A DNA stretch of 64,000 bases from Brachypterus glaber (lineage: Eukaryota > Arthropoda > Insecta > Coleoptera > Kateretidae): contig OY294048.1 in assembly GCA_958510825.1 (NCBI GenBank), forward strand, positions 9,503,589-9,567,588. Reading direction: 5' to 3'. Positions 4,108-52,238 of this stretch are shown in pieces. Every line of letters starts with the position of its first letter. The first letter of the stretch is position 1. The position numbers were made by a program, and so were the translations under genes. A model generated the notes under the pieces. The model was not told the origin of the DNA, did no database searches, and saw only the letters and a program-made list of their open reading frames with translations.

Positions 4108-4282
4108 TATTTTTTTCCTGAAAAAATTATGTTGATCTCACTTTTTCTTCTATTTTTTTTTATTTTCTTAAAAAAATCTTTCAAATTTGGTACAACTGTT
4201 TTTTTTTATGTTTAGCCGCCTTAACTTTCTCACTTTTTAATGGATTGTTTCCAATTTTAAGGCATATCCACAAGCTCGCAAC

Positions 4283-4292
4283 AACAACATAG
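4283..4292. repeat. Target-site duplication, left copy (AACAACATAG)
   Basis: The 10-bp AACAACATAG immediately precedes the inserted array and is repeated exactly at 5601-5610, just after it. This is the expected footprint of an insertion event and its length fits LINE-type target-primed reverse transcription. Confidence 0.75.
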
Positions 4293-4449
4293 TAAGGACA
4301 GAAATTTTTAATTTTAAACAAAATTATAAAAATATTAATTATTATTCCATCAATCTATTTTCGCACAAGTCTACATCAATCTAATGGCTATATTGCTTTT
4401 GCGAGTAAAGTCTAAAAACGTTTTCTTAATCAGCGTGCAGAGTTGACTC

Positions 4450-4494
4450 TTGGTACTGAAGAGGGCCAGCAGCCCGAAACTGTCAGTCTACCAA
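4450..4494 (+). ncRNA. Type I hammerhead ribozyme, unit 1
   Basis: All core elements are present in order. Stem I 5' strand is TTGGTA (4450-4455). The core CTGAAGA (4456-4462) fits CUGANGA. Stem II is GGGC/GCCC closed by loop CAGCA (4463-4475). GAA (4476-4478) follows. Stem III is ACT/AGT with loop GTC (4479-4487). C17 is at 4488, so the predicted cleavage is after AGTC, between 4488 and 4489. Stem I 3' strand TACCAA (4489-4494) pairs perfectly with TTGGTA. Stem III is only 3 bp, so a dimeric fold of two neighbouring copies may be the better catalyst. Confidence 0.9.
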
Positions 4495-4803
4495 TATCAC
4501 TCTGTACGATGATTAGAAAATAGATTGATGGAATAATAAATTAATATTTTTATAATTTTGTTTAAAATTAAAAATTTCTGTCCTTACTAATTTTACGTCT
4601 AACCACCCGTTAGTGGTACTATGTGCTTGAGACACACAAGTCTTCAACTTGCTACCATTCAAAGTCTCCAGATTAGGAGAGGTATGAGTAGTTGTCTACA
4701 TCTAGAAATAGATGGCGCACAAGTCTACATCAATCTAATGGCTATATTCCTTTTGCGAGTAAAGTCTAAAAACGTTTTCTTAATCAGCGTGCAGAGTTGA
4801 CTC

Positions 4804-4848
4804 TTGGTACTGAAGAGGGCCAGCAGCCCGAAACTGTCAGTCTACCCA
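4804..4848 (+). ncRNA. Type I hammerhead ribozyme, unit 2 (stem I variant)
   Basis: Same core, stem II and stem III as unit 1. The 3' strand of stem I reads TACCCA, giving one mismatch with TTGGTA near the outer end. Predicted cleavage is between 4842 and 4843; cleavage at this site and at that of unit 1 would release 354 nt. Confidence 0.87.
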
Positions 4849-5157
4849 TATCACTCTGTACGATGATTAGAAAATAGATTGATGGAATAATAAATTAATA
4901 TTTTTATAATTTTGTTTAAAATTAAAAATTTCTGTCCTTACTAATTTTACGTCTAACCACCCGTTAGTGGTACTATGTGCTTGAGACACACAAGTCTTCA
5001 ACTTGCTACCATTCAAAGTCTCCAGATTAGGAGAGGTATGAGTAGTTGTCTACATCTAGAAATAGATGGCGCACAAGTCTACATCAATCTAATGGTTATA
5101 TTCCTTTTGCGAGTAAAGTCTAAAAACGTTTTCTTAATCAGCGTGCAGAGTTGACTC

Positions 5158-5202
5158 TTGGTACTGAAGAGGGCCAGCAGCCCGAAACTGTCAGTCTACC
5201 AA
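5158..5202 (+). ncRNA. Type I hammerhead ribozyme, unit 3
   Basis: Identical in every ribozyme position to unit 1, with perfect 6-bp stem I (TTGGTA/TACCAA). Predicted cleavage is between 5196 and 5197. Confidence 0.9.
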
Positions 5203-5511
5203 TATCACTCTGTACGATGATTAGAAAATAGATTGATGGAATAATAAATTAATATTTTTATAATTTTGTTTAAAATTAAAAATTTCTGTCCTTACTAATT
5301 TTACGTCTAACCACCCGTTAGTGGTACTATGTGCTTGAGACACACAAGTCTTCAACTTGCTACCATTCAAAGTCTCCAGATTAGGAGAGGTATGAGTAGT
5401 TGTCTACATCTAGAAATAGATGGCGCACAAGTCTACATCAATCTAATGGCTATATTCCTTTTGCGAGTAAAGTCTAAAAACGTTTTCTTAATCAGCGTGC
5501 AGAGTTGACTC

Positions 5512-5556
5512 TTGGTACTGAAGAGGGCCAGCAGCCCGAAACTGTCAGTCTACCCA
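5512..5556 (+). ncRNA. Type I hammerhead ribozyme, unit 4 (stem I variant)
   Basis: Same as unit 2, with TACCCA as the 3' strand of stem I. Predicted cleavage is between 5550 and 5551. The array ends about 45 bp further on, so this ribozyme would trim the 3' end of an array transcript. Confidence 0.87.
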
Positions 5557-5600
5557 TATCACTCTGTACGATGATTAGAAAATAGATTGATGGAATAATA

Positions 5601-5610
5601 AACAACATAG
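5601..5610. repeat. Target-site duplication, right copy (AACAACATAG)
   Basis: Exact repeat of 4283-4292. Beyond it the interrupted host palindrome resumes. Confidence 0.75.
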
Positions 5611-5886
5611 TACATAAGAATGCGGTACCGTGATTGGCTTACAACATATATGGTGTCACTTCAAGCCAATCACGGCATCGCATTGTTATGTGTTACGTTC
5701 TTATGCGAGCCTGTGGATATGCCCTTGATAGGCCTCATGTCATTACCAAGGTTATTCTTATTCTTTTTCGAGTTATAGTGCGAACCTGAACATGTGATTT
5801 CTGGACAGACGGACGGACTTGTTTAAAAGTTGTTAAGATTGTATACTTTTTGTACAATTTTTTTTGATTTTTGACAAAAAATTTCT

Positions 5887-20480: not shown

Positions 20481-22362
20481 CAGTGGTGGCATTAAATATC
20501 GGGACAAACAATTTTGGCAGACTAACATCTCTACTCTAAATTTCACTACTCCGTAACATTTCTAATCCATAACATCCCTACTCCATAACAACTCTACTCC
20601 CTAACATCTCTACTCCATAACATCTCTACTCCATAACATCCCTACTCCATAACATCCCTACTCCCCAACAACCCTACTCCGTAACATCTCTACTCTATAA
20701 CATCTCTACTCCATAACATCTCTACTCCGTAACATCTCTACTCCGCACTATATGCACTTGATTAGCAACTTATTAATTAAGGAGTGATTGACGGAACAAA
20801 GTACATTATTTGATCACAATTTTTCCTAGTAAGTGTTTGTCTTCATACAAAATAAAAAAAAATTACAGACGTATGTTATAAATACAAACTTAAATATACA
20901 TAGTAATATATTTGTTAATTTAATTTAATTTAAAAAAACTTTGTGACAATTTCGATAATTATTGTTTTACAGTTCTGTACAAAAGGTGTTTTAGCACCTT
21001 TTATAAAATTGACTTGTCAAAAAAATATTTGTCACGGTAAGCAATTTGAATTTTTACATTTAAAATATTTAGTTCAATAATACCTTATTTATTAGAATAT
21101 TTTGTTTTTTTTTATTAGAATATGTTAAGAGTACGCGGGCAAAGAGACGGGACTTGGAGGTACATATACAGGGAACAAATATACCACCAAGACTCCAAGT
21201 CCGTAGGTCGCAGGTATGTTTGTGATAAAATAATGTACTTTGTTCCGTCAATCACTCCTTAATTAATAAGTTGCTAATCAAGTGCATATAGTGCGGAGTA
21301 GAGATGTTACGGAGTAGAGATGTTATGGAGTAGAGATGTTATAGAGTAGAAATGTTACGGAGTAGGGTTGTTGGGGAGTAGGGATGTTATGGAGTAGGGA
21401 TGTTATGGAGTAGAGGTGTTATGGAGTAGAGATGTTATGTAGTAGAGTTGTTATGGAGTAGGGATGTTATGGGGTAGAGATGTTACGGAGTAGTGAAATT
21501 TAGAGTAGAGATGTTAGTCTGCCACAATTTTTCATAGATTATAGTGGGTCTTGTGTCATTTGTTAAAAAACGTCTAAAATATGTCAAATGTTTTTTTATT
21601 TTTTGCTGTTATACAAGAAGTTTGTAAAAAAAAGTGTTTTTTATCTTTATTTTAATATAAAATGATTTACTTATCGTGGAAATTTAAGAGAAAAAATGCT
21701 CAGTCGTCCTTAGTATTAGGAGATATGGATGAGGTTTGATTTTAGTGAAAACAGTTCAAGCAATAGATCTGTTTCTTAAGAAATGTTTTATTGGGAAAAA
21801 CTTAGGTTCTTATATCAAACCGAAATTGGATCATCGGTGGTCAAAAGCTACAATGGATGGTTAAGCAATTTTTAATTATATAAGGAAAACCGAGAAAAAT
21901 AAGGTACAGTTGCCGTATACTAGGAATTTTTTTTCGCTTACCTCAATGCGGCTCTTCAGTAATGAACTCTTAAACTCAAATCTATTTGCAGTAGAAAATT
22001 TATAAAACCTTATGCGTTTTTAGCTGTACTGAAGAGTAAAATTAGGTGTGTGTTTTTTTAATAAATATTAAACACATATTCTTTACCCATATGGTACCAT
22101 TTTGATCCAAAGATTATCAATTTTATTATTATTTAAATATAACAACATTTGTGTAAAATTAATTGAATATATATTTATCAATAAACATTAATTTATTAAT
22201 TTAATATTTTTTGACAGTAAACTTCAACTTAATAATTCAGTTATGTCAAAACGAAGTAACCTAGTTTTTAATTTTTAAAATAATCCCATGTTAATCCATG
22301 AAAAAAATATAAAAATGACACGAATTTTTTTGAGGTTGTCCCGATATTTAATGCCACAACTG
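20481..22362. mobile_element. Tc1-like non-autonomous element carrying a nested foldback
   Basis: The ends CAGTGGTGGCATTAAATATC and (right, complement) CAGTTGTGGCATTAAATATC are followed by GGGACAA, with TA at 20479-20480 and 22363-22364. This is the Tc1/mariner signature. The left arm is interrupted right after its end by a foldback (20508-21533). No transposase frame is found in the rest (21534-22335). A related single end lies at 25986-26013. Confidence 0.85.
20508..21533. mobile_element. Foldback with minisatellite arms (ACTCCATAACATCTCT)n
   Basis: The two arms (about 20508-20820 and 21218-21533) are reverse complements. Each is built mainly of about 14 imperfect copies of a roughly 15-16-bp motif (CTACTCCATAACATCTC), then GTGCACTTGATTAG-like and AGGAGTGATTGACGGAAC segments. 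Arms made of short tandem repeats resemble Drosophila FB/Galileo-type foldbacks, but no sequence relation is claimed. The loop has no gene. Confidence 0.75.
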
Positions 22363-27924: not shown

Positions 27925-28830
27925 AATAACCCAGGCCCACAAAATAAAAAAAGTGGTCTGTGCTGGGGTTGAGACCCACCTACTCTTATGTATTTTGGGA
28001 TGCTGAACACGAATCTGTCATAAAAAAAGGCACTTCATGGGCTCATTTCTTTGCTACACTGAAAAAACTGTCTAAAATGGTAAAAATCTCATATTATGTA
28101 TATGAAACAAAAAAATGAGCCATTGAAGTGCATTTTTTATGACAGATTCTTGTTCACCATCTCAAAATACATAAGAATAGGTGGGTCTAAACCCCAGCAC
28201 AGATTGCTCTTTTTTTTTGTGGCACCAGACAGTTTTTTCCAGTGTAGAAAAAAAAATGAGCCTATGAAGTGCTCATTTCTTTGCTACACTGAAAAAACTG
28301 TCTAAAATGGTAATTGAAGTGCATTTTTTATGACAGATTTGTGTTCAGCATCCCAAAATACATAAGAATAGATGGGTCTCAACCCCGGCACAGACGACTA
28401 TTTATTTTTTGTTTGTTTTGTTTTTTCAGTGTAGAAAAAAAATGAGCCGATGAAGTGCCTTTTTTATGACAGATTCGTGTTCATCATCCCAAAATACTTA
28501 AGAATAAGTGGATCTCAACCCCAGCACAGACCACTTTTTTTTTGTGGGCCCAGACAGTTTTTTCAGACTAGATACAAAATAAGCCCATGAGGTGCCTTTT
28601 TTTTATGGCAGATTCGTGTTCAGCATCCCAAAATACATAAGAATCCGTGGGTCTTAACCACAGCACCGACCACTTTTTTTTGTGGGTCCAGACAGTTTAT
28701 TCAGTGTAGAAACAAAATAAGCTCACGAGGTGCCTTTTTTTATGACAGATTCGTATTCAGCATCCCAAAATACATAAGAACAGTTAGGTCTCAACCCCAG
28801 CACAGCCCACTTTTTTCTTTTGTGGGCCTG
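27925..28830. repeat. About 140-bp satellite array, six to seven units, first unit inverted
   Basis: Units carry CAGACAGTTTTTTCAGTGTA, ATGAGCC(C/T)ATGAAGTGC, TTATGACAGATTCGTGTTCA, GCATCCCAAAATACATAAG and GGGTCTCAACCCCAGCACA. The first unit (27935-28075) is in reverse orientation, and a direct fragment is repeated at 28270-28310. The frames that read KKSGLCWG at both edges are products of the repeat. Confidence 0.75.
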
Positions 28831-29330: not shown

Positions 29331-29675
29331 CCTGCTGCCATCCAAAAGATGCCATTTCCGGACTGCTTTTTTTGTTTTGATTTTTTTAATTTTTTTATTT
29401 ATTTTTTATTGTTAAATCAATAATTTTAACTTGCATTAAATTTGAGAGTATTTGAGATAATGCAATCAACTATCCACTGTTAATAGTATAAAATGAAATG
29501 CGAAGCATTACATATCTTTACGACTTGTTTTGTCATAAGCAGTATAGAACATGAAAGAATATTATTCAATGAACGTTTAATATTGCTATTTCTATTAGAG
29601 AAAAAAACATTCTAATATAAAGTATTTCTGATACTTGTAAATATAAAAATCTTCTTCTGAAAACACTAAGAATAA
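29331..29675. other. AT-rich spacer
   Basis: I see no gene or element ends. A GCGAAGCATTACATATC motif near 29501 recurs in variant form at 8881, 26683 and 56369. Confidence 0.4.
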
Positions 29676-30018
29676 GTACAGAAATTTTTAATTTTAAACA
29701 AAATTATAAAAATATTAATTTATTATTCTATCAATCTATTTTCTAATCATCGTACATAGTGATATTGGTAGACTTGCTACCATTCAAAGTCTCCAGACTA
29801 GGAGAGGTATGAATAGTTGTCTACATCTAGCAAAAGATGGCGCAAAAGTCTACATCAATCCAATGACTGTATTCCTTTTGCGAATAAAGTCTAAAAACTT
29901 TTTCTTTCTTAATCAGCGTGCAGAGTTGACTTGGTACTGAAGAGGGCCAGCATCCCGAAACTGTCATTCTACCAATATCACTCTGTACGATGATTAGAAA
30001 ATGGATGAAATAATACTT
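29676..30018 (+). mobile_element. Single decayed retrozyme-like monomer with an inverted leader
   Basis: The part 29676-29773 is the reverse complement of the unit from the ribozyme cleavage site (TACCAATATCAC) onward. The part 29774-30018 is forward and contains the ribozyme. The outer ends match those of the array at 4293-5600, where the leader is also inverted. The two pieces together make up roughly one 354-bp monomer. Divergence from the array units is considerable, so this is an older insertion. The minus-strand frame across it is accidental. Confidence 0.8.
29931..29975 (+). ncRNA. Degenerate hammerhead ribozyme
   Basis: Stem I (TTGGTA/TACCAA) and the core CTGAAGA and GAA are intact. 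Stem II GGGC faces TCCC, losing one pair, and stem III ACT faces ATT, losing the central C-G pair and changing the cleavage triplet from GTC to TTC. Activity is unlikely. Confidence 0.75.
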
Positions 30019-30276
30019 TAAGAACCAGTTTGCACCCTTTTCGCCTCTCTTAATCCCTTTTGATTTTATCCCCTCCGAGATCCTTAAACAAGATACCAAG
30101 ACTATAAGTTTGAAGCCCTAACTGGTATCCTATAGAATGTATTTATCATAACACCTCTAAATTAAACCATAACACAAGATAATTCAGAAGAGTTTAAAGT
30201 TAGATATACCCTACAGTGAGAATTTGTTAGTATTAAATACCGAACGATTTTGTATATTTGGAACACCTAGAAACTT

Positions 30277-30811: not shown

Positions 30812-33079
30812 CTAGGTTGGAGCATGATATAATTTTAAGTGCGAAGCGTGGAAAGTTCCACGTTCTGTGTTATCTTCTAAATGGAGTAACACATAGGTAG
30901 CATTGCTAACCTTTTTCTTAATTTTGTACGGACCAGTAAATAATAGTAGCATTTTTTTGGTCTCCGCGCGCAGTTTGGACGAGACATTGTTTGCCCTTAA
31001 TAATACCAAGTCATCCGGTTGAAAATCGTAAAATGGTTTACCAGGGTTCGCTAGAGCACGTCGGGCTGCCTTACCTTGCAAAGTTGCTTCAGCCAAGACT
31101 AGTTTTGTATCTAAGGATAGTTCGGTTCTTTCCCCGGGATATTCCCAATCAGCGGGTAATAATTTAGGACGCGATATTCCTAACTGTAGCTCGTTCGGAG
31201 AAAACCCTGTGCTTTCGTGGACAACTGAGTTTAAAAATTCCGCAAAATTATCCACTTCCCAGGCCCATCTAGAGTGACGCTCGTTACAATAAGTGCGCAA
31301 AAGCCGCCCCAACTCCCTCATAACTCGTTCTGAGGGATTGGCACATGGATGACGTACGCTGGTATATACTAACTGAATATTTAGTTCCGACAAACGAGTG
31401 GTCCAAAGCTTGGATGTAAATTGGGAACCGTGATCCTGAAGGATCCGTAGCGGTCTACCATGCGTCGGGAGATAATCCTTGGTAAGACGGTTTATCATAG
31501 AGCGAGCAGTAGCATTTTTAAGGGGATACAATGCTACGTGTTTGGTGAACAGGTTTAAAATTACTAAAATGTAAGTCAAACCGGCCCTACTATGTATCAG
31601 GGGTCCAAGGACATCTAAAGCTATAATATCGCCTTTATTGCGTGGGATAATTTGCATTTGCGGGGGATTTGGTAATTTGGAGATTTTTGTTTTTTGACAA
31701 ATCTCGCAAGTTTTTATTTGCTTTTTTATTGTTCGATGCATATTTGTCCACCATAATTCGTCACGCATAGCAATCCACGTTTTGTATACCCCGAAATGCC
31801 CATACGCATTGTGATAAGCGGTAACAAAACGATTTATCAAATTACGAGGGACACACAATAAGTACTCATCTACCCCTCTTCCAATTTTGTAAAGCAAATT
31901 ATTATGTAAAATAAATTGACGACGGAGCTTTTCAGTGGTGGGTAACTGTTGTTTAATGCTTATGAGTTTTTCATCCCCATTTTGGTGTAAAACAAAGTTA
32001 TGTAACATTTCCTGCAGATCTGTGGACAATTTGATTACCGAAAACAGCTGAAAATATTTATCTTTGGGAACCGGGAACCTAGAACCTGCAAAACGACTTA
32101 AAGCATCGGCCTGGACGTTAGCTACGCCTGGGACGAAAATAACCTCAAACCAATATTCTTGTAAAACAAGTGCCCAACGGGAAATCCGGTCTGACAATAA
32201 ACGACAGCGGTTTATATAAGTTATTGCTTTATTATCTACATGCAGAAAAAATTTCCGGCCAATGAGGTAAACCCTCCATTTCTGGAAAGCGAACAAAACG
32301 GCCGTGATTTCCTTTTCCGTAGATCCATAGCGCGTTTCTCTATCCAACAGCAACCGGGAAGCATAAGCAATAACCCTGCGACTGCCATCTATTATCTGAA
32401 ATAATAAAGCTCCTACGGCAAAGTCACTTGAATCGGTTTGGACATGAAGAGCTTGCGAAAAAATTGGATGATAAAGTAGAGCTTCCTCCTGTAATAAAGA
32501 CTTAAGATTTTGAAAGGCTTTTTCGTGTTCTTCGGTCCATTTCCACGAAACTTTCTTTCTTAAAAGCTGCGTTAGTGGTGCTGAAAGCTCTGCGAAATTT
32601 ATAGAAAACATTCTATCATATTGACAGAGACCTAAAAAAGATTGAAGTTGTTTGACATTCTTAGGGCGAGTATAATCCTGGATAGCCTGGACTCGTTCAG
32701 GATTTGGACGGACGGTGTCTCCATTTATGATGTAGCCTAAGTATGAAAGCTCAGTTTGAAAAAACCTACACTTACTTAGCTTTACTGTTAATCCAGCTTC
32801 CTGTAAACGGGAAAACACTCTTTCGAGATGCTCAACATGTTCTAAAAAATTAGAACTCGCCACCCCCATATCATCAACGTATTTAAACAAAAAGTCATTG
32901 AATGTGGTACCAAAAATAAGGTCTAAAGCTCTCGTAAAAGCACTAACTGCGGTACGTATACCAAAGGGTAACACACAAAAACGGTAGGTTTTATTACCTA
33001 ACATAAAACCTAAGTATTGACGATCCTCTTGTCTTAATGGTATTTGCCAATACCCGTGAGATAAATCAATAAGCGACAA
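30812..33079 (-). CDS. pol: pol, downstream part: reverse transcriptase, RNase H, integrase
   Basis: 755 codons in one frame. The reverse transcriptase part has DLSHGYWQIPL at residues 5-15, LPFG at 37-40 and the catalytic YVDD at 67-70. RNase H has TDSSDF (D216), E255 and HVDNK (D282). Integrase has a zinc-binding H423/H428/C458/C461 set and catalytic D489, D549 and E584. FTGPYK near the C-terminus is the GPY/F module; no chromodomain is seen. The start listed is only the first usable codon in the frame: the real protein continues from the upstream pol frame, and the two are separated by one base too many in an A8 run near 33083-33090. The integrase and RNase H parts look intact. The clade within Ty3/Gypsy is not settled. 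Confidence 0.93.
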   Translation of the reverse strand: MSLIDLSHGYWQIPLRQEDRQYLGFMLGNKTYRFCVLPFGIRTAVSAFTRALDLIFGTTFNDFLFKYVDDMGVASSNFLEHVEHLERVFSRLQEAGLTVKLSKCRFFQTELSYLGYIINGDTVRPNPERVQAIQDYTRPKNVKQLQSFLGLCQYDRMFSINFAELSAPLTQLLRKKVSWKWTEEHEKAFQNLKSLLQEEALLYHPIFSQALHVQTDSSDFAVGALLFQIIDGSRRVIAYASRLLLDRETRYGSTEKEITAVLFAFQKWRVYLIGRKFFLHVDNKAITYINRCRLLSDRISRWALVLQEYWFEVIFVPGVANVQADALSRFAGSRFPVPKDKYFQLFSVIKLSTDLQEMLHNFVLHQNGDEKLISIKQQLPTTEKLRRQFILHNNLLYKIGRGVDEYLLCVPRNLINRFVTAYHNAYGHFGVYKTWIAMRDELWWTNMHRTIKKQIKTCEICQKTKISKLPNPPQMQIIPRNKGDIIALDVLGPLIHSRAGLTYILVILNLFTKHVALYPLKNATARSMINRLTKDYLPTHGRPLRILQDHGSQFTSKLWTTRLSELNIQLVYTSVRHPCANPSERVMRELGRLLRTYCNERHSRWAWEVDNFAEFLNSVVHESTGFSPNELQLGISRPKLLPADWEYPGERTELSLDTKLVLAEATLQGKAARRALANPGKPFYDFQPDDLVLLRANNVSSKLRAETKKMLLLFTGPYKIKKKVSNATYVLLHLEDNTERGTFHASHLKLYHAPT

Positions 33080-34331
33080 ACATTTTTTTTCCTCCCATAA
33101 ATTTTACTAATTCGTCAATTAAAAGCGTTTTCTCAAAATCTGGAGCCATTACTGAGTTTAAGTGGCGTGCATCCAAACATATGCGCACGCTCCCATCGCG
33201 TTTTAAGGTGCTCATAATTGGCGATATGTATTTCGAAGGAGCTCGCTCTATAACACCCCATTCTTCCATTTGTTGGATAGCTTTTTCCACTGCGTCTCTA
33301 TGTGCCACAGGGATGGCATAGGGCTTGACAAAAAACGGGGTATGATCGAGGAGTTCTATGGAGTGTGTATACAAATGAGTCCGTCCTGGAGTGTCAGAAA
33401 AAATATCCGAGTATTTATTTAATAAATTATTAAAAATAATTTTTTCACTTTCAGACAGATTTGTTTTTTGTACCACCTCGTAAAATTTACTATTAGGATC
33501 GATTGTAGCTTTATTATTTAAAGATTGATGGGACTTTGGCAAAAACTTAAAAAGATTTTCTGAAGTACTTTCCGTAACATTTTCATTGATTTTTGGGAAA
33601 GCATTTTTTTTATTTTCAAAATCATTACCTAAAAAACGGGTTTCATTGGTATTTACATTTTTTTTTACTGACGTTAAATTTTGTACAGTACCGGTTTTTG
33701 CCAGAGTACCTTCAAATTTAATTTTATTGTTTTGTGAGGAACACAATTTTTTTTCACTATTTACAAGTTTACACATATTTAACGACACAGAGTTATTGTG
33801 CTGAATATTTTTTTCAGGAACAATAATATATTTATCATTTATTTTTAATACTATGTGCTGTTCTGCTAAATTTATGTTGGCATGAAAAATTCTTAAGAAA
33901 TCGCACCCTAAAATTACGGGATATGTTAGACTTGGTATTATTAAGAACTCTTGTACAAAATTTTCGTTTTTTATAACAAATAAAATATCAGCTTGAAGAG
34001 TGACTTTTTTATATTTTGATTTAAATGCGCCTACAACTTTTATACCGGAACACTTAAAGTGTGGAATTTCCTCATGAAATTTAGTTATTTGGTTCCAGAC
34101 ATCTTCTGAAATTGCAGAAATTTGACTGCCACTGTCAATAAGTCCTAAGAACCAAAAATCAAAGATTTTTAACTCTATTGTCGGTGAACGATTTTCGGCT
34201 AATTCATGACTAAAATCACACTCTTCGAGTAATTCATCTTTTGGATTATTTTGTACACGAATGTTAGTCCCTGCGAACGGAGTCTCCAAAACGGAACTTA
34301 ATTTTGGGGCTCCATCTCGTTTTCCGAGATT
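33066..34331 (-). CDS. pol: pol, upstream part: aspartic protease and N-terminal reverse transcriptase
   Basis: The frame is open from 34331 to 33066. The protease shows DSGSQISAI, the D-S-G catalytic triad (about residue 66 of the open frame), and LGCDFLR of its C-terminal part. A weakly conserved linker rich in N and K follows. The reverse transcriptase N-terminus then has an IERAPSKYISPI segment and VRICLDARHLNSV. The frame ends early at the A8 run. It overlaps gag by 34 nt in the -1 frame, so gag-pol is probably made by -1 frameshifting; I see no textbook slippery heptamer, only a GGAAAAC stretch. The stop may be a real mutation or a homopolymer assembly error. Confidence 0.9.
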   Translation of the reverse strand, partial: NLGKRDGAPKLSSVLETPFAGTNIRVQNNPKDELLEECDFSHELAENRSPTIELKIFDFWFLGLIDSGSQISAISEDVWNQITKFHEEIPHFKCSGIKVVGAFKSKYKKVTLQADILFVIKNENFVQEFLIIPSLTYPVILGCDFLRIFHANINLAEQHIVLKINDKYIIVPEKNIQHNNSVSLNMCKLVNSEKKLCSSQNNKIKFEGTLAKTGTVQNLTSVKKNVNTNETRFLGNDFENKKNAFPKINENVTESTSENLFKFLPKSHQSLNNKATIDPNSKFYEVVQKTNLSESEKIIFNNLLNKYSDIFSDTPGRTHLYTHSIELLDHTPFFVKPYAIPVAHRDAVEKAIQQMEEWGVIERAPSKYISPIMSTLKRDGSVRICLDARHLNSVMAPDFEKTLLIDELVKFMGGKKMFVAY

Positions 34332-35416
34332 TTATTTTCTTCGACCCCCAAGGTAGAAATATTAGGACGAGGATTTCTATTAAAATTTCTATTATACTGG
34401 TGGGGACCACTAGTAAAATTATTATTATTAGGAAAATGTTTTGGTGGTGTGTCCCTTTGACCTGCAAATTGATTTTTTTCTACTGGAAATTTTTTTACAT
34501 TTAAATTTATATAATTATCAGCCTGTCTAAGTCTACTTAAACCTTCTGATAAATTATATACGCCAATAAGTGTGGTGGACACATTAGGGGGAAAATGGCG
34601 GGCTAAAATACTTATTAACTGTTGCTCTGTATAGGGAGGTTGAAGATATTTAGCAAGGGCGACATAACGGCTAAAGTGGTCGGTAAATAGACCTTGTTCA
34701 TATCTTCCTGCCTCCAACTGTAATTTAACCCCTAACTGTTTGTCAGGACCCCAAAAATGATCTGAAAATTCTCTTTTAAACTGATCATAATTTTGAAAAA
34801 ATCCTGAAAAAGCATCCCACCATATTTTGGCGGATTTTTTCAGCAGGTTATTAATTATTGTGAAAATTTTATGAAACGGTGTATTGTTTACATCTAAAAA
34901 ATTTTCTAACGATAGCAAAAACTCAATTGGGTGTGTGGTATTTTCATTGTCAAATATAGGGATAAATTTACCGGCTTCTGCGGGAGATATTGTACAAACA
35001 TTTTCATTTAAATTAGATTGGTTATTGTTTATATTTAAGTTTCTCATAGAATTTACGACTGTAGCTACTAATTGGACGATATCCTCTTGGCTAGGAGGCG
35101 GATATAAAATTGGCTGTGCAGCCCCAGTTGAATACGGCGGCGGATTTTCGCTCGCTGCTGCCTGGTGTGATTGACGGCTTCTGCGAGGTACGTATTCTGG
35201 CGCACTAGGTGAAAATGTACACTGCGTGACATTTTCATTGTACGTCGGCAAATTAAATAGGCCTTCGGTAGATGTAGAATAAACAGGAAAATTCCTACCT
35301 TGGTTATTCTGCGTTTCCGTTACCCTGGGTTGTCCTGGATTTGCTGGCGTATGCTCCAGATTGCGTCCACGTCCGTTACCGTTGACCGATGTTGGTGGCG
35401 GCGTGTGTATAACCAT
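34298..35416 (-). CDS. gag: gag polyprotein
   Basis: 372 codons from ATG 35416 (MVIHTPPPTSV). An in-frame extension upstream reaches into the LTR but has no ATG, so this start is preferred. The N-terminal third is proline and asparagine rich. The middle has the retrotransposon Gag-type capsid fold region, recognisable from HPIEFLLSLENFLD, KIWWDAFSGFF and ADNYINL. The C-terminus is rich in N, R and F and basic, with no CCHC zinc knuckle, so RNA binding probably relies on basic residues. The stop lies inside the overlap with pol. Confidence 0.88.
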   Translation of the reverse strand: MVIHTPPPTSVNGNGRGRNLEHTPANPGQPRVTETQNNQGRNFPVYSTSTEGLFNLPTYNENVTQCTFSPSAPEYVPRRSRQSHQAAASENPPPYSTGAAQPILYPPPSQEDIVQLVATVVNSMRNLNINNNQSNLNENVCTISPAEAGKFIPIFDNENTTHPIEFLLSLENFLDVNNTPFHKIFTIINNLLKKSAKIWWDAFSGFFQNYDQFKREFSDHFWGPDKQLGVKLQLEAGRYEQGLFTDHFSRYVALAKYLQPPYTEQQLISILARHFPPNVSTTLIGVYNLSEGLSRLRQADNYINLNVKKFPVEKNQFAGQRDTPPKHFPNNNNFTSGPHQYNRNFNRNPRPNISTLGVEENKISENEMEPQN

Positions 35417-35460
35417 CTTCTTTTGCAGTTTTCCGATAAAAAATCCCAAAAAAAACTCGA

Positions 35461-35482
35461 ACCAGCCCCTCGTTGGTAGCCA
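35461..35482 (-). other. Primer-binding-site-like sequence
   Basis: TGGCTACCAACGAGGGGC on the minus strand starts 3 nt inside the 5' LTR. The TGG start is what complements a tRNA CCA end. The exact tRNA is not assigned. Confidence 0.55.
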
Positions 35483-35485
35483 CGT

Positions 35486-35960
35486 TGCGATGGAACTCAA
35501 AATATCTCGGGGTTGGTTTTTGGGTTGGTGGCTGGTATATGTCGAGCGATAATAAAAATACTGTTTTTATTTTGGGTTAGGTTGGTTTTATTTGCACACT
35601 GGATGTTATCCTGTAAAACTATAAAAATTGTACATTAAAAAGAGAAAATATCTTCGCAGAAGACGGTAACTTACCTATAAAAATGACTAGGCCCCCAGAT
35701 GATTTACTAGCAGTAAAAAGTTGGTCGATGACCCAAAAGTTCACTTGTATGTCTACGAATGATTGAAATGCAAATGAACGAAATTTGTCCTGCTATCGCT
35801 GAAAAAGTACGTTATAGTTTTTTGTTCGGTTTGAACAAAAAACTCAAAATAATAATAACTGATATTTTTGATTAAAATTTAAAAGTAGAGTAGGTGGGGA
35901 CACCTAGTGTGTAGGGGTTAAATTACCGTTAGATGGAGGTAGACTTCCAGTTTTGCTACA
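35486..35960 (-). repeat. LTR (5' LTR of the minus-strand Ty3/Gypsy element)
   Basis: 475 bp, apparently identical to 30277-30751. It is followed on the plus strand by ACTT (35961-35964), the right copy of the target duplication. Confidence 0.93.
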
Positions 35961-42775: not shown

Positions 42776-43949
42776 AACTTGAATTTTTGTATTTTTATTA
42801 ATTTACTAATCGAGTCCTGTTAGCAGACTTTGTAGTGCATTTTTCCGTTTTTTTTTACTTTCCAGCTGATTCGTTAGTAACAATACCTCTCCAGTGGACC
42901 ATTTTTAGCTACACTCAGATATGTGAATTAGTCATTAAAAACATAACCAACTTGTTAATTTTATACGTGTTAAAAGGACACCAGAGTAGCTTAATTATAA
43001 TAGGTTTGTTTTAAATGGTTAATTGAAAAAGCGACGAAAACGATTCTGTGTCGCTTTTAGTTAAATCCAATTTATTTTTAATTAAATTAAAATTTTCACA
43101 TATTTAAATATTTAAAATTAATTTAGTTTTTTTTATGTATATATTAATCTACCTTCTTAATTATATTAAAGTATATTAAAATTTAAAGTATTGAATTAAA
43201 TTATACAGGGTTACACAGAAACTACATTAAAAATAGTGATTTATTAAAAATACCGATTTATCGGAATGCTTTAAAGAAATGTTTAGAAATCAAGCTTTTC
43301 TCATTGACTTTTGTAAAAAGCATTTTATTATTTAATTTAGTGACTTATTGACCTTAGTCATTACAAAAAAAAATGTTTTCTTAAGCAGCGTGGAGATTTG
43401 ACTTATAGTACTACAAATATCAATCACATAGGTACAGAAGCTATAGTGGGTATTAGATAAAGACAAAAACACATTGGGTGTGTAAAATTTAGTCCGCCAT
43501 TTTTACCCTTTAAACGTTAAAGTTTGTAAACAAAAACAAAACCTAAAAATGTGTAATGGATTTTGGATCTTTTTGCTTTTTGATGTAAGAAAATATATTT
43601 GTAATATCTGTGTTGGATTTTTTTCCTTTTTGAAATAAGAAAATATTATATTTAATAAGTTTCTAGTTTTAAATCTCATTTTAAAATGCTTCATGGAAAC
43701 TCAACAACAATAAAATAGATTTAATTTTGAAATTTGTTTTGCGACTCATTATATAGCGCCCTAATTAGATTCTGCACAACTTTATTTGATATCTCCTACG
43801 CGAAGCAAAATAATGAGAATTAGCTTTATTCTCGAGGTCTCAATGCATTGGATTTACAATCTACTTTTGAAAACGCGGCTTGCAATTAACTAAAAATGTC
43901 TTACCTACTTTTGCTTTTTTATAAGTTATAAACAGTAGTCGACGTAAAC
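42776..43949. other. AT-rich spacer with a decayed retrozyme-like segment
   Basis: TGTTTTCTTAAGCAGCGTGG followed by AGATTTGACTTATAGTACTAC (43374-43413) resembles the segment just before and at the ribozyme of the 354-bp unit, but the ribozyme core is gone. No gene is seen. Confidence 0.4.
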
Positions 43950-45206
43950 TCAGTTATTTATTTATTTATTTATTTATTTATTCAAAAACTCACACAGGTT
44001 TCCCCAATTACAGAGTTTGTTATGTTAAGTAAATTAATAACAATATCAGTGATCATTACCAGCAGGTGCAGCAAAAAAGTTTTTTATTTTGCAAATAGAA
44101 GTATTTAAAATATCGACCCTAGAGCAAATACTATTATAGTAATTGCACATAAGAATCACAGGTGAAAACAGATAAACATTAGTTCTGGACGTTCTAACAT
44201 AAAAAAATAGAGAGATTCTAGCAGAAACTCTGGCACGTTTATTTGCAATAAGTTTAATAGCTCTATACAGTCAATCTTATTATTGATCAATTTATACAAA
44301 AATATAATTGATGCTTGTTGACGTCTTACAGATAACGATTAAAACGAGAAATCATTTAGCAAATTCACATTAGGTATCCCTCTAGCTGGATACTCACCAT
44401 ATTTCCTAAGATACAGATATTTGAGGTAACGTCTTTGAACGTTTTTTAAAGCAGCATAATTAGGACACCAAACTACCGAACAATATTCCAAATGTGATCT
44501 GACATAGAACATATAGAGAAAATTAACAGTTTTAATGCTAAAACATTTAGTATTCCTAATAATAAACCCAAGTGATTTGTAAGCTTTGGATACAATATTG
44601 TTTATGTGTGGATGAAAAGATAATTTTTTGTCAAAAGTGACACCAAGATCCTTGATGGTATCAGGTCTGTCCAAACTGTGCCCATCGATATTGTAGTCAA
44701 AAGTGATGACATTTAATTTTGTAGTAAAACTGAATATGTGACATTTATCAGCATTTAAGGGTAACTTGTGTCCATTGCACCATTTAACTACAGTATCTAA
44801 GATATCTTGTAGTTGAATACAATCATTTAAACTTTGGATTATCTTATATAACTTCATATCGTCTGCGAAAAGAAGACCATATACATTAATCAGGATCATT
44901 ATTAGATCATTAATAAAAATGATAAACAACAGTGGACCCATAATGGATCCTTGCGGAACACCCGACGTTGCAATGTATATGAAGGATTTTATACCATTGC
45001 ATTCAACATATTGCATTCTGTTATATAAATAAGTAATCATTAGACATAAGAGAGGAATTGAAAAACCGAATATGTCGAGCATCATGATAAGAATTCTGTG
45101 GTCTAGTCTTTCTAAAGCCTTTGAAAATTAGCACAGAAACAGGCTTACGGAATAATTTTGCCGAATTATGAGGGAAATTTTTATAAAGGTCACTAAATCG
45201 AAACAT
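43950..45206 (-). pseudogene. 5'-truncated non-LTR retrotransposon (CR1/Jockey-like reverse transcriptase)
   Basis: The main frame 45085-44339 (248 residues) has SGVPQGSIMGPLLF at 41-54 and LFADDMKLY at 72-80, the catalytic FADD form, then the thumb region through LEYCSVVWCP. Just upstream, in a shifted frame, FSKALERLDH matches the preceding conserved motif, separated by a frame change. Downstream of 44339 further C-terminal sequence is readable in other frames (LSVRRQQASIIFLYKLIN), so there are several lesions. The 3' end has GGGGAAACCTGTGTGAG and an (AAAT)n tail at 43957-43983. Endonuclease and ORF1 are absent, typical of 5' truncation. It is a dead copy. Confidence 0.88.
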
Positions 45207-51310: not shown

Positions 51311-52098
51311 AATCAAATCAAATACAATCCGACAGACAGACTTTTATTTAATATCGTTTTAAAGTTTGGAATAAAGCACTTAAAATTAAGCACTTACTTT
51401 CCTTGTTTCTGTATTAGAACAAATTTGCAAACTTGAATTTAATTTGCTTAAAAGTTGATTTTTGATATTCCCTTGTATATTTTTCATACTCAAACATTAA
51501 ACATCAGTCCAAATCAAATACAGTTCGACAGACAGACTTTTTCTTTAATATCGTTTTAATGTTTGGAATAAAGCACTTAAAATTAAGCACTTACTTTCCT
51601 TGTTTCTGTATTAGAACAAATTTGTAAACTTGAATTTAATTTGCTTAAAATTTGATTTTTGATATTCCCTTGTATAATTTTCATACTCAAACATTAAACA
51701 TCAGTCCAAATCAAATAAAATCCGACAGACAGACTTTTCTTTAATATCGTTTTAAAGTTTGGAATAAAGCACTTAAAATTAAGCACTTACTTTCCTTGTT
51801 TCTGTATTAGAACAAATTAGTAAACTTGAATTTAATTTGCTTAAAAGTTGATTTTTGATATTCCCTTGTATAATTTCCATACTCAAACATTAAACATCAG
51901 TCCAAATCAAATACAATCCGACAGACAGACTTTTTCTTTAATATCGTTTTAATGTTTGGAATAAAGCACTTAAAATTAAGCACTTACTTTCCTTGTTTCT
52001 GTATTAGAACAAATTTGTAAACTTGAACTTAATTTGCTTAAAAGTTGATTTTTGATATTCCCTTGTATAATTTTCATACTCAAACATTAAACATCAGC
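51311..52098. repeat. Four tandem copies of a 196-bp satellite
   Basis: GACAGACAGACTTTT starts at 51331, 51527, 51724 and 51920, spacing 196-197. Each unit has the palindrome GCACTTAAAATTAAGCAC and TGATATTCCCTTGTATA. Units are nearly identical. No ribozyme motif was found on either strand. Confidence 0.85.
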
Positions 52099-52238
52099 TC
52101 CAATAATTTTTGAACCGCAAAATAGTATTGACATGCTAATGGGTATAAGCGGAAGTTCATGCTTCAGTTAATATTTAATAAACCTTTTTTAATTAATTCT
52201 ATTTTACACTCTACGAACACCCCTTGCCCGGAACTTGC

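Follow-up and report, generated by a model that had tools for sequence, protein, structure and literature searches.

The window analysed here, a 64,000-nt stretch of contig OY294048.1 of Brachypterus glaber, contains a short tandem array of 354-bp units with a hammerhead motif, and this locus raises the question of what such an array is and which machinery placed it there. Animal retrozymes are tandem repeats with type I hammerheads that give rise to linear and circular RNA; insects are among the groups that carry them, they have a wide distribution, and the circular forms of their RNA can reach high levels (PMC7229834; this and all other papers are cited from excerpts). Who moves them has hitherto been suggested on indirect grounds, with either LINEs or Penelope-like elements (PLEs) as candidates, and the latter are considered a strong candidate on account of shared hammerheads, tandem copies and co-occurrence (PMC7229834). 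The ends of insertions are a direct record of the mobilising machinery. Our reading, to which we assign a probability of about 0.87, is that the array represents one insertion of a non-autonomous, non-LTR insect retrozyme family that would have spread through PLE machinery. Coordinates are window positions throughout, and "phase" denotes a position given in the coordinates of unit 1.

The hammerhead array and its insertion into a MITE

The features of the array, of its flanks and of a second copy in the window are as follows.

4260..5726, no strand: host MITE, a palindrome with the ends GGCATATCCACA..TGTGGATATGCC, interrupted by copy 1
4283..4294, no strand: left target-site duplication of copy 1, AACAACATAGTA, matching 5601-5612 at 12/12 positions
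4295..4361, minus: left arm of copy 1, inverted (98.6% to the reverse-complemented unit by BLAST and nhmmer)
4362..5600, plus: direct arm of copy 1, 3.5 tandem 354-bp units, the array spanning 4362-5602 (TRF and repeat search, 99% matches)
4427..4515, plus: hammerhead 1 including distal stem I (descriptor and pair check)
4427-4443/4499-4515, plus: distal stem I of hammerhead 1 (pair check)
4450-4455/4489-4494, plus: proximal stem I of hammerhead 1
4456-4462, plus: core CTGAAGA of hammerhead 1
4463-4466/4472-4475, plus: stem II of hammerhead 1, followed by GAA at 4476-4478
4479-4481/4485-4487, plus: stem III of hammerhead 1 with the loop GTC; predicted cut between 4488 and 4489
4781..4869, plus: hammerhead 2, stem I with C for A at phase 4493 (descriptor and unit comparison)
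5135..5223, plus: hammerhead 3 (descriptor)
5489..5577, plus: hammerhead 4, stem I with C for A at phase 4493 (descriptor and unit comparison)
5601..5612, no strand: right target-site duplication of copy 1, AACAACATAGTA, matching the left one
29663..29672, no strand: possible left target duplication of copy 2
29673..29774, minus: left arm of copy 2, inverted; its outer end lies at site B (97% to 4485-4586 in reverse complement)
29772..30014, plus: direct arm of copy 2 (about 91%), which ends on the right at site A

The unit comparison showed that the units, three full and one half, vary at only three phases, 4388, 4395 and 4493. The elements CTGAAGA, GGGC/GCCC, GAA, ACT/AGT and the C/T step of the cut follow one another in type I order at 4456, 4810, 5164 and 5518, with a spacing of exactly 354. 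A generic hammerhead descriptor (CTGANGA, stem II of at least 3 pairs, GAA, an A15.1..U16.1 stem III of at least 3 pairs, H17 and stem I of at least 4 pairs) matched the four hammerheads of the array and nothing else on either strand of the 64 kb, and gave no match in 400 first-order Markov windows. These results bore out in all four units what the initial annotation had claimed, i.e., copies exactly 354 bp apart with core, stem II, GAA and stem III, and strands ordered as in a type I hammerhead. It had also described the hammerhead as intact in every unit, which was too strong; the 6-bp stem I TTGGTA/TACCAA holds in units 1 and 3, and in units 2 and 4 it reads TACCCA, with 4 contiguous pairs, so that stem I carries a mismatch in two of the four. 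The Rfam comparison that it had proposed returned no family at the gathering score over the array, the best match being RAGATH-1-hammerhead with 21.3 against 56.3 bits (E 0.08), and the whole window at gathering scores yielded one tRNA and nothing else.

Beyond an internal loop, stem I continues with a distal part, TAATCA-g-CGTGCAGAGT facing ACTCTGTACG-a-TGATTA, with 16 standard pairs. Among 114 pieces there were no compensatory changes in stem I, and the one-sided changes kept the pair in 25 cases and broke it in 56, so that covariation lends this stem no support. Divergence was 2.1% in distal stem I, 1.5% in its loop and 3.1-4.3% in the rest of the unit, values open to bias because the loci were chosen by the neighbouring core. 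Core position 7 of the array hammerheads is A; in cave-cricket hammerheads, this is the sole core position free to vary (PMC2837043). The frame scan found no stop-to-stop frame of at least 110 aa overlapping 4283-5612, indicating a retrozyme without a long coding frame. Two minor observations concern the same region of the unit. Within stem I, window positions 4493, 4847, 5201 and 5555 alternate A, C, A, C, as expected from a dimeric template, and such clear unit-to-unit alternation had no counterpart in other arrays. At 43369-43412, a diverged piece (nhmmer E 1.5e-5) resembles the hammerhead region on the 5' side and is perhaps the remnant of a related family.

The flanks of copy 1 are those of an insertion. 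The score of its 12-bp duplication was equalled by 1 in 2000 random pairs of places, and when the insertion is removed and the left arm of the MITE is joined to the right flank, the product aligns to the right arm in reverse complement. A sub-threshold mir-5882-like match was found on both strands; it corresponds to the MITE palindrome and was not read as a miRNA gene. The left arm of copy 1 has its outer end at site B (phase 4584-4589) and its inner end at phase about 4516, and the direct arm ends on the right at site A (phase 4538-4540). Copy 2 is older than copy 1. An array-derived pattern search located its hammerhead, in which stems II and III are damaged, with the core at 29937, and its possible target duplication is weak, with 8/10 matches to 30015-30024 and 90 of 2000 random pairs scoring as high. 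Both copies share one plan, an inverted left arm that starts from near phase 4584-4589 and a right arm that runs to near 4538-4540, and it was from these two copies that both end sites and the PLE idea were formulated, ahead of any genome data. As regards the extent of the element, the annotated array proved real, and the distal stem I, the inverted left arm, the target duplications, the MITE host and the second copy at 29673-30014 had been missed.

Insertion ends across the genome

The host genome (648 Mb, 842 contigs) contains 2,649 exact 37-nt cores and no match to the reversed control sequence. For the end survey, the first 60 core clusters on one contig were taken unselected and mapped against the unit, which gave 67 chains; all surveyed loci were thus chosen by an exact hammerhead core and lie on one contig. 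Each chain was described by the RNA-3' and RNA-5' sides of its arms, and the outer RNA-3' ends gathered at two sites, for which the window widths were fixed after the loci had been mapped.

4538..4540, plus, unit 1 coordinates: site A, 41/106 outer RNA-3' ends at 4530-4552, refined by duplications to about 4534-4540
4582..4587, plus, unit 1 coordinates: site B, 41/106 outer RNA-3' ends at 4580-4600, refined by target duplications

Sites A and B lie about 51 and 96-98 nt beyond the predicted ribozyme cut. Together, they account for 82 of the 106 outer RNA-3' ends in the 60 loci, and of the 24 found elsewhere, 9 fall at 4556-4570. The 28 outer RNA-5' ends were distributed differently, with 2 at A, 2 at B and 24 elsewhere. 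As for the form of the 67 chains, 39 were head-to-head, 14 minus only, 12 plus only and 2 plus-minus-plus, both of the latter at locus L045; none had RNA-5' sides outward at both ends. In the 25 head-to-head chains with both ends assigned, the arrangement was AB in 13, BA in 11, AA in one and BB in none, and at least one end was unassigned in the remaining 14 of the 39. One end of each kind was therefore present in 24/25 chains (binomial p 8e-7 against half and half), or in 23/24 when the duplicate at L015 is left out. Loci L015 and L045 each hold a duplicated retrozyme copy, and the two chains of either locus are not independent; in the duplicated stretch of L045, two site-A ends make an internal tail-to-tail contact. 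The one-of-each rule suggests that both starts may lie on one RNA molecule.

Target duplications were scored at the ends of the same chains. A score of at least 9 was reached in 22 of the 39 head-to-head chains, compared with 1.5% of 455 shuffled pairings, and the duplications were 9-17 bp long, often 13. The ends that they define fall at 4534-4540 and 4582-4587, with the exceptions of L016 (4528) and L041 (4513). At the inner junctions (n=41), the arms overlapped by at least 1 nt in 30, at least 2 nt in 26 and at least 4 nt in 16, against chance values of 47%, 18% and 2%, although BLAST may have lengthened these overlaps slightly.

The arms also carry information on their template. Only 2 of 82 inner ends lay within 3 nt of the predicted cut, with 1.6 expected, and cut linear monomers were rejected as the template since the inner ends were not enriched at the hammerhead cut. 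The longest direct arm in the 60 loci has about 5.6 units (L047), and arms that span several units point to a template that was circular or multimeric. Both arms of one insertion had 45 non-consensus bases in common over 5,865 positions in 43 insertions, i.e., 7.7 per kb, whereas sharing between insertions amounted to 1.5 per kb, and the highest of 40 shuffles gave 2.4. This sharing suggests one RNA, or RNAs of one source, as the template of both strands. At sites covered by at least three units of an array, non-consensus bases occurred in all units in 20 cases, in one unit in 193 and in between in 24; the in-between variants often occurred in runs of neighbouring units (L025, L041, L047). Circular monomers and multimers may each have served as the template, as both are compatible with the way in which the variants are shared.

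Penelope-like elements and the probable agent of insertion

No autonomous PLE partner was found in the window, where the frames of at least 110 aa belong to an element of the Ty3/gypsy type and to a LINE-type reverse transcriptase. In the host genome, at least 31 GIY-YIG matches were found among the 150 of 419 candidates that were scored. In 20 PLE loci (L069-L088), 12 contained minimal hammerhead-like motifs, 17 in total, and 14 of these belong to one family, PLE1, in which the sequence past the hammerhead was seen by eye to stop at two places, 6 near and 8 far. For PLE1, the end sites were located by eye on a single copy, 65 and 99 nt downstream of the cut, compared with 51 and 96-98 nt in the retrozyme. 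Four PLE insertions had both arms in view (L076, L079, L080 and L082, with L079 from another PLE family), and in 4/4 the best target duplication was obtained from one-of-each ends; these duplications measured 12, 14, 15 and 18 bp with at most one mismatch, and at L080 the one-of-each score was narrowly ahead of the next (8.5 against 7.5). Judged from their sequences, the host PLEs and the retrozyme have one insertion architecture in common. As a separate observation, a second PLE family stands in tandem on the reverse strand of contig C556 (L075), with two GIY-YIG matches 2,994 bp apart and a hammerhead-like motif that, by eye, has TTGAAGA for CTGAAGA and a palindromic CTAG stem III loop.

This architecture has parallels in described PLEs. 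A purified PLE protein cut and extended both strands in vitro, with starts at two internal sites that matched the tail (PMC11167929), and in Adineta, Pen2a has an inverted pLTR and a 9-bp duplication, and a 31-bp tail is attached to one of its inverted pLTRs (PMC3846280). Adineta PLEs also moved an unrelated gene in trans (PMC3846280). With Anolis PAc (PMC11167929), Adineta Pen2a (PMC3846280) and PLE1, the retrozyme shares the inverted arm, the tail between two end sites past the hammerhead, the target duplication, the tandem units and the one-of-each ends, and by this analogy it fits the published PLE pattern at every point examined. It differs from them in that it codes for nothing long, its hammerhead is canonical and site A lies 51 rather than 65 nt past the cut.

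We propose the following route. A PLE protein would nick both target strands a dozen bases apart, and reverse transcription would begin inside the retrozyme RNA, downstream of the ribozyme, at A for one strand and at B for its partner. Both antisense cDNAs would extend inward and be joined at short homologies, and the outcome would be a head-to-head insertion with the duplicated target on either side. The end comparisons, made on DNA sequence, establish the two sites, the one-of-each rule, the head-to-head form, the target duplications and the architecture common with PLEs; that a PLE protein was the agent, and that both strands came from one RNA or from RNAs of one source, we infer. At even odds, a more specific model may hold for retrozyme and Penelope insertions alike, in which each consists of two first strands. 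Two PLE-protein protomers would sit on the two start sites of one RNA, one for each target strand, so that a normal insertion would receive both kinds of end, and neither strand would be an end-to-end copy of the other; retrozymes would then be parasites with only a ribozyme and a two-site start region.

Three other origins were weighed against mobilisation by PLE machinery. The 354-bp unit could be a cut-down PLE, a pLTR minus the coding part, which moves by descent and not by borrowing. The insertion architecture and a hammerhead with A at position 7 are indeed common to both, but the retrozyme has a canonical hammerhead, in which stem I is long and stem III has 3 bp, and the PLE hammerheads are minimal; moreover, BLAST of the unit against the PLE pieces in L069-L088, which are partial PLEs, gave no convincing DNA likeness among the matches listed, save for 44 nt in L072 (E 8e-7) that lie over the hammerhead sequence. 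We consider this origin unlikely. In addition, since the element has no long frame, and with it no reverse transcriptase or GIY-YIG endonuclease of its own, it is not classed as a PLE. Movement by a LINE through target-primed reverse transcription, with the inverted left arms as twin-priming inversions, is less probable still. Target duplications of 9-17 bp would suit LINEs too, Nematostella retrozyme repeats with 15-bp duplications have been likened to them (PMC4918200), and a non-LTR reverse transcriptase is present in the window at 44339-45127; however, twin priming expects one fixed 3' end with scattered inversion points, and not 13 AB and 11 BA, and it does not predict that the PLEs of the genome have the same architecture. 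An ordinary satellite DNA that unequal crossing-over or DNA circles had spread, with the hammerhead as a passenger, would account for the tandem form and the near-identical units but hardly for short, dispersed copies that have target duplications and end at two fixed sites, nor for copy 1, which interrupts a MITE with a 12-bp duplication, and it is scarcely credible here.

The array is, on its sequence characters, a genuine insertion of a new retrozyme family of a known kind, and its identity as a retrozyme is well supported. The initial annotation had already read it as a retrozyme, and the unit size, the type I hammerhead and the dispersed copies with long target duplications agree with this, while the Penelope-type integration was absent from that account. 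It had further predicted that array transcripts would cleave themselves into 354-nt monomers able to form circles, a putative series of RNA steps of which the insertions bear no trace at the cut. Animal non-LTR retrozymes of coral, mussel and axolotl (PMC7229834) are likewise tandem repeats of 150-450 bp with a canonical type I hammerhead and no long ORF, and their copies are dispersed, with target duplications of more than 4 bp and insect hosts reported. In comparison with them, the family described here is new in sequence, and its ends are resolved, with two fixed sites, one per end, and head-to-head arms. Plant LTR retrozymes (PMC4918200) also carry a hammerhead RNA in a non-autonomous retroelement, and differ in having LTRs, hammerheads of type III and duplications of 4 bp. 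Dolichopoda pDo500 (PMC2837043) is another insect repeat with a hammerhead in which core position 7 may vary; it has been described as a satellite DNA, and no account of its insertion ends was found in the excerpts of that paper. In the excerpted retrozyme and PLE literature, where mobilisation by Penelope is only proposed, we found no report on the insertion ends of animal retrozymes, and a prior description is possible. Exact-pattern scans of viral and genome contig collections, which hold few or no insects, returned no relatives, an outcome of little weight. If the two-site, one-of-each rule is general, it would tie retrozymes to Penelope elements in a manner that can be checked by mapping ends in any sequenced genome; it would match, in vivo, the two internal starts made by one purified PLE protein, and would supply thousands of natural insertions for the study of PLE integration, which is poorly known.

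RNA folding and other features of the window

Computed folds of the unit raise a further point about the ribozyme. By energy alone, the monomer prefers a structure in which the core CUGA is paired with UCAG (-36.8 kcal/mol) over the hammerhead (-28.7 kcal/mol), and in the monomer fold, the CUGA:UCAG pair had a probability of at least 0.99 and stem III of 0. The computed fold of the 354-nt circle had an energy of -93.3, with a z of -4.3 against 100 shuffles and 64% of the bases paired. On the basis of these models, the ribozyme could have two states: in the monomer it would be blocked, because the core CUGA pairs with the UCAG strand of stem III, and in multimers a double hammerhead would do the cutting; we regard this as a tentative reading that falls just short of an even chance. 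In its favour, stem III, ACUGUCAGU, can pair with itself between two copies at 8/9 positions, and the cost of the double hammerhead over the alternatives (-57.7 against 2 x -30.7) is lower than that of a single one. Amphibian retrozymes with a weak stem III, moreover, cut well only as dimers (PMC7229834). Against this, the unconstrained two-strand fold (-65.5) is better than the double hammerhead, and all these energies omit the tertiary core and loop contacts.

Other repeats and mobile elements were observed elsewhere in the window. On the minus strand, the Ty3/gypsy element occupies 30812-35566 in at least three frames (gag-like, protease and RT/RNaseH/integrase), and the nearest named relative of its protein is from Photinus pyralis, with 50% identity. 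The reverse transcriptase fragment at 44339-45127, also on the minus strand, matches RVT_1 and is LINE-like by eye. Two 16-bp minisatellites of about 14 copies each, with reverse-complement units, lie about 550 bp apart at 20523-20744 and 21295-21516. A 137-bp tandem repeat with 3.6 copies and 83% matches was found at 28324-28816, and at 51314-52103, a 197-bp tandem repeat with 4 copies has a higher-order period of 393 bp.
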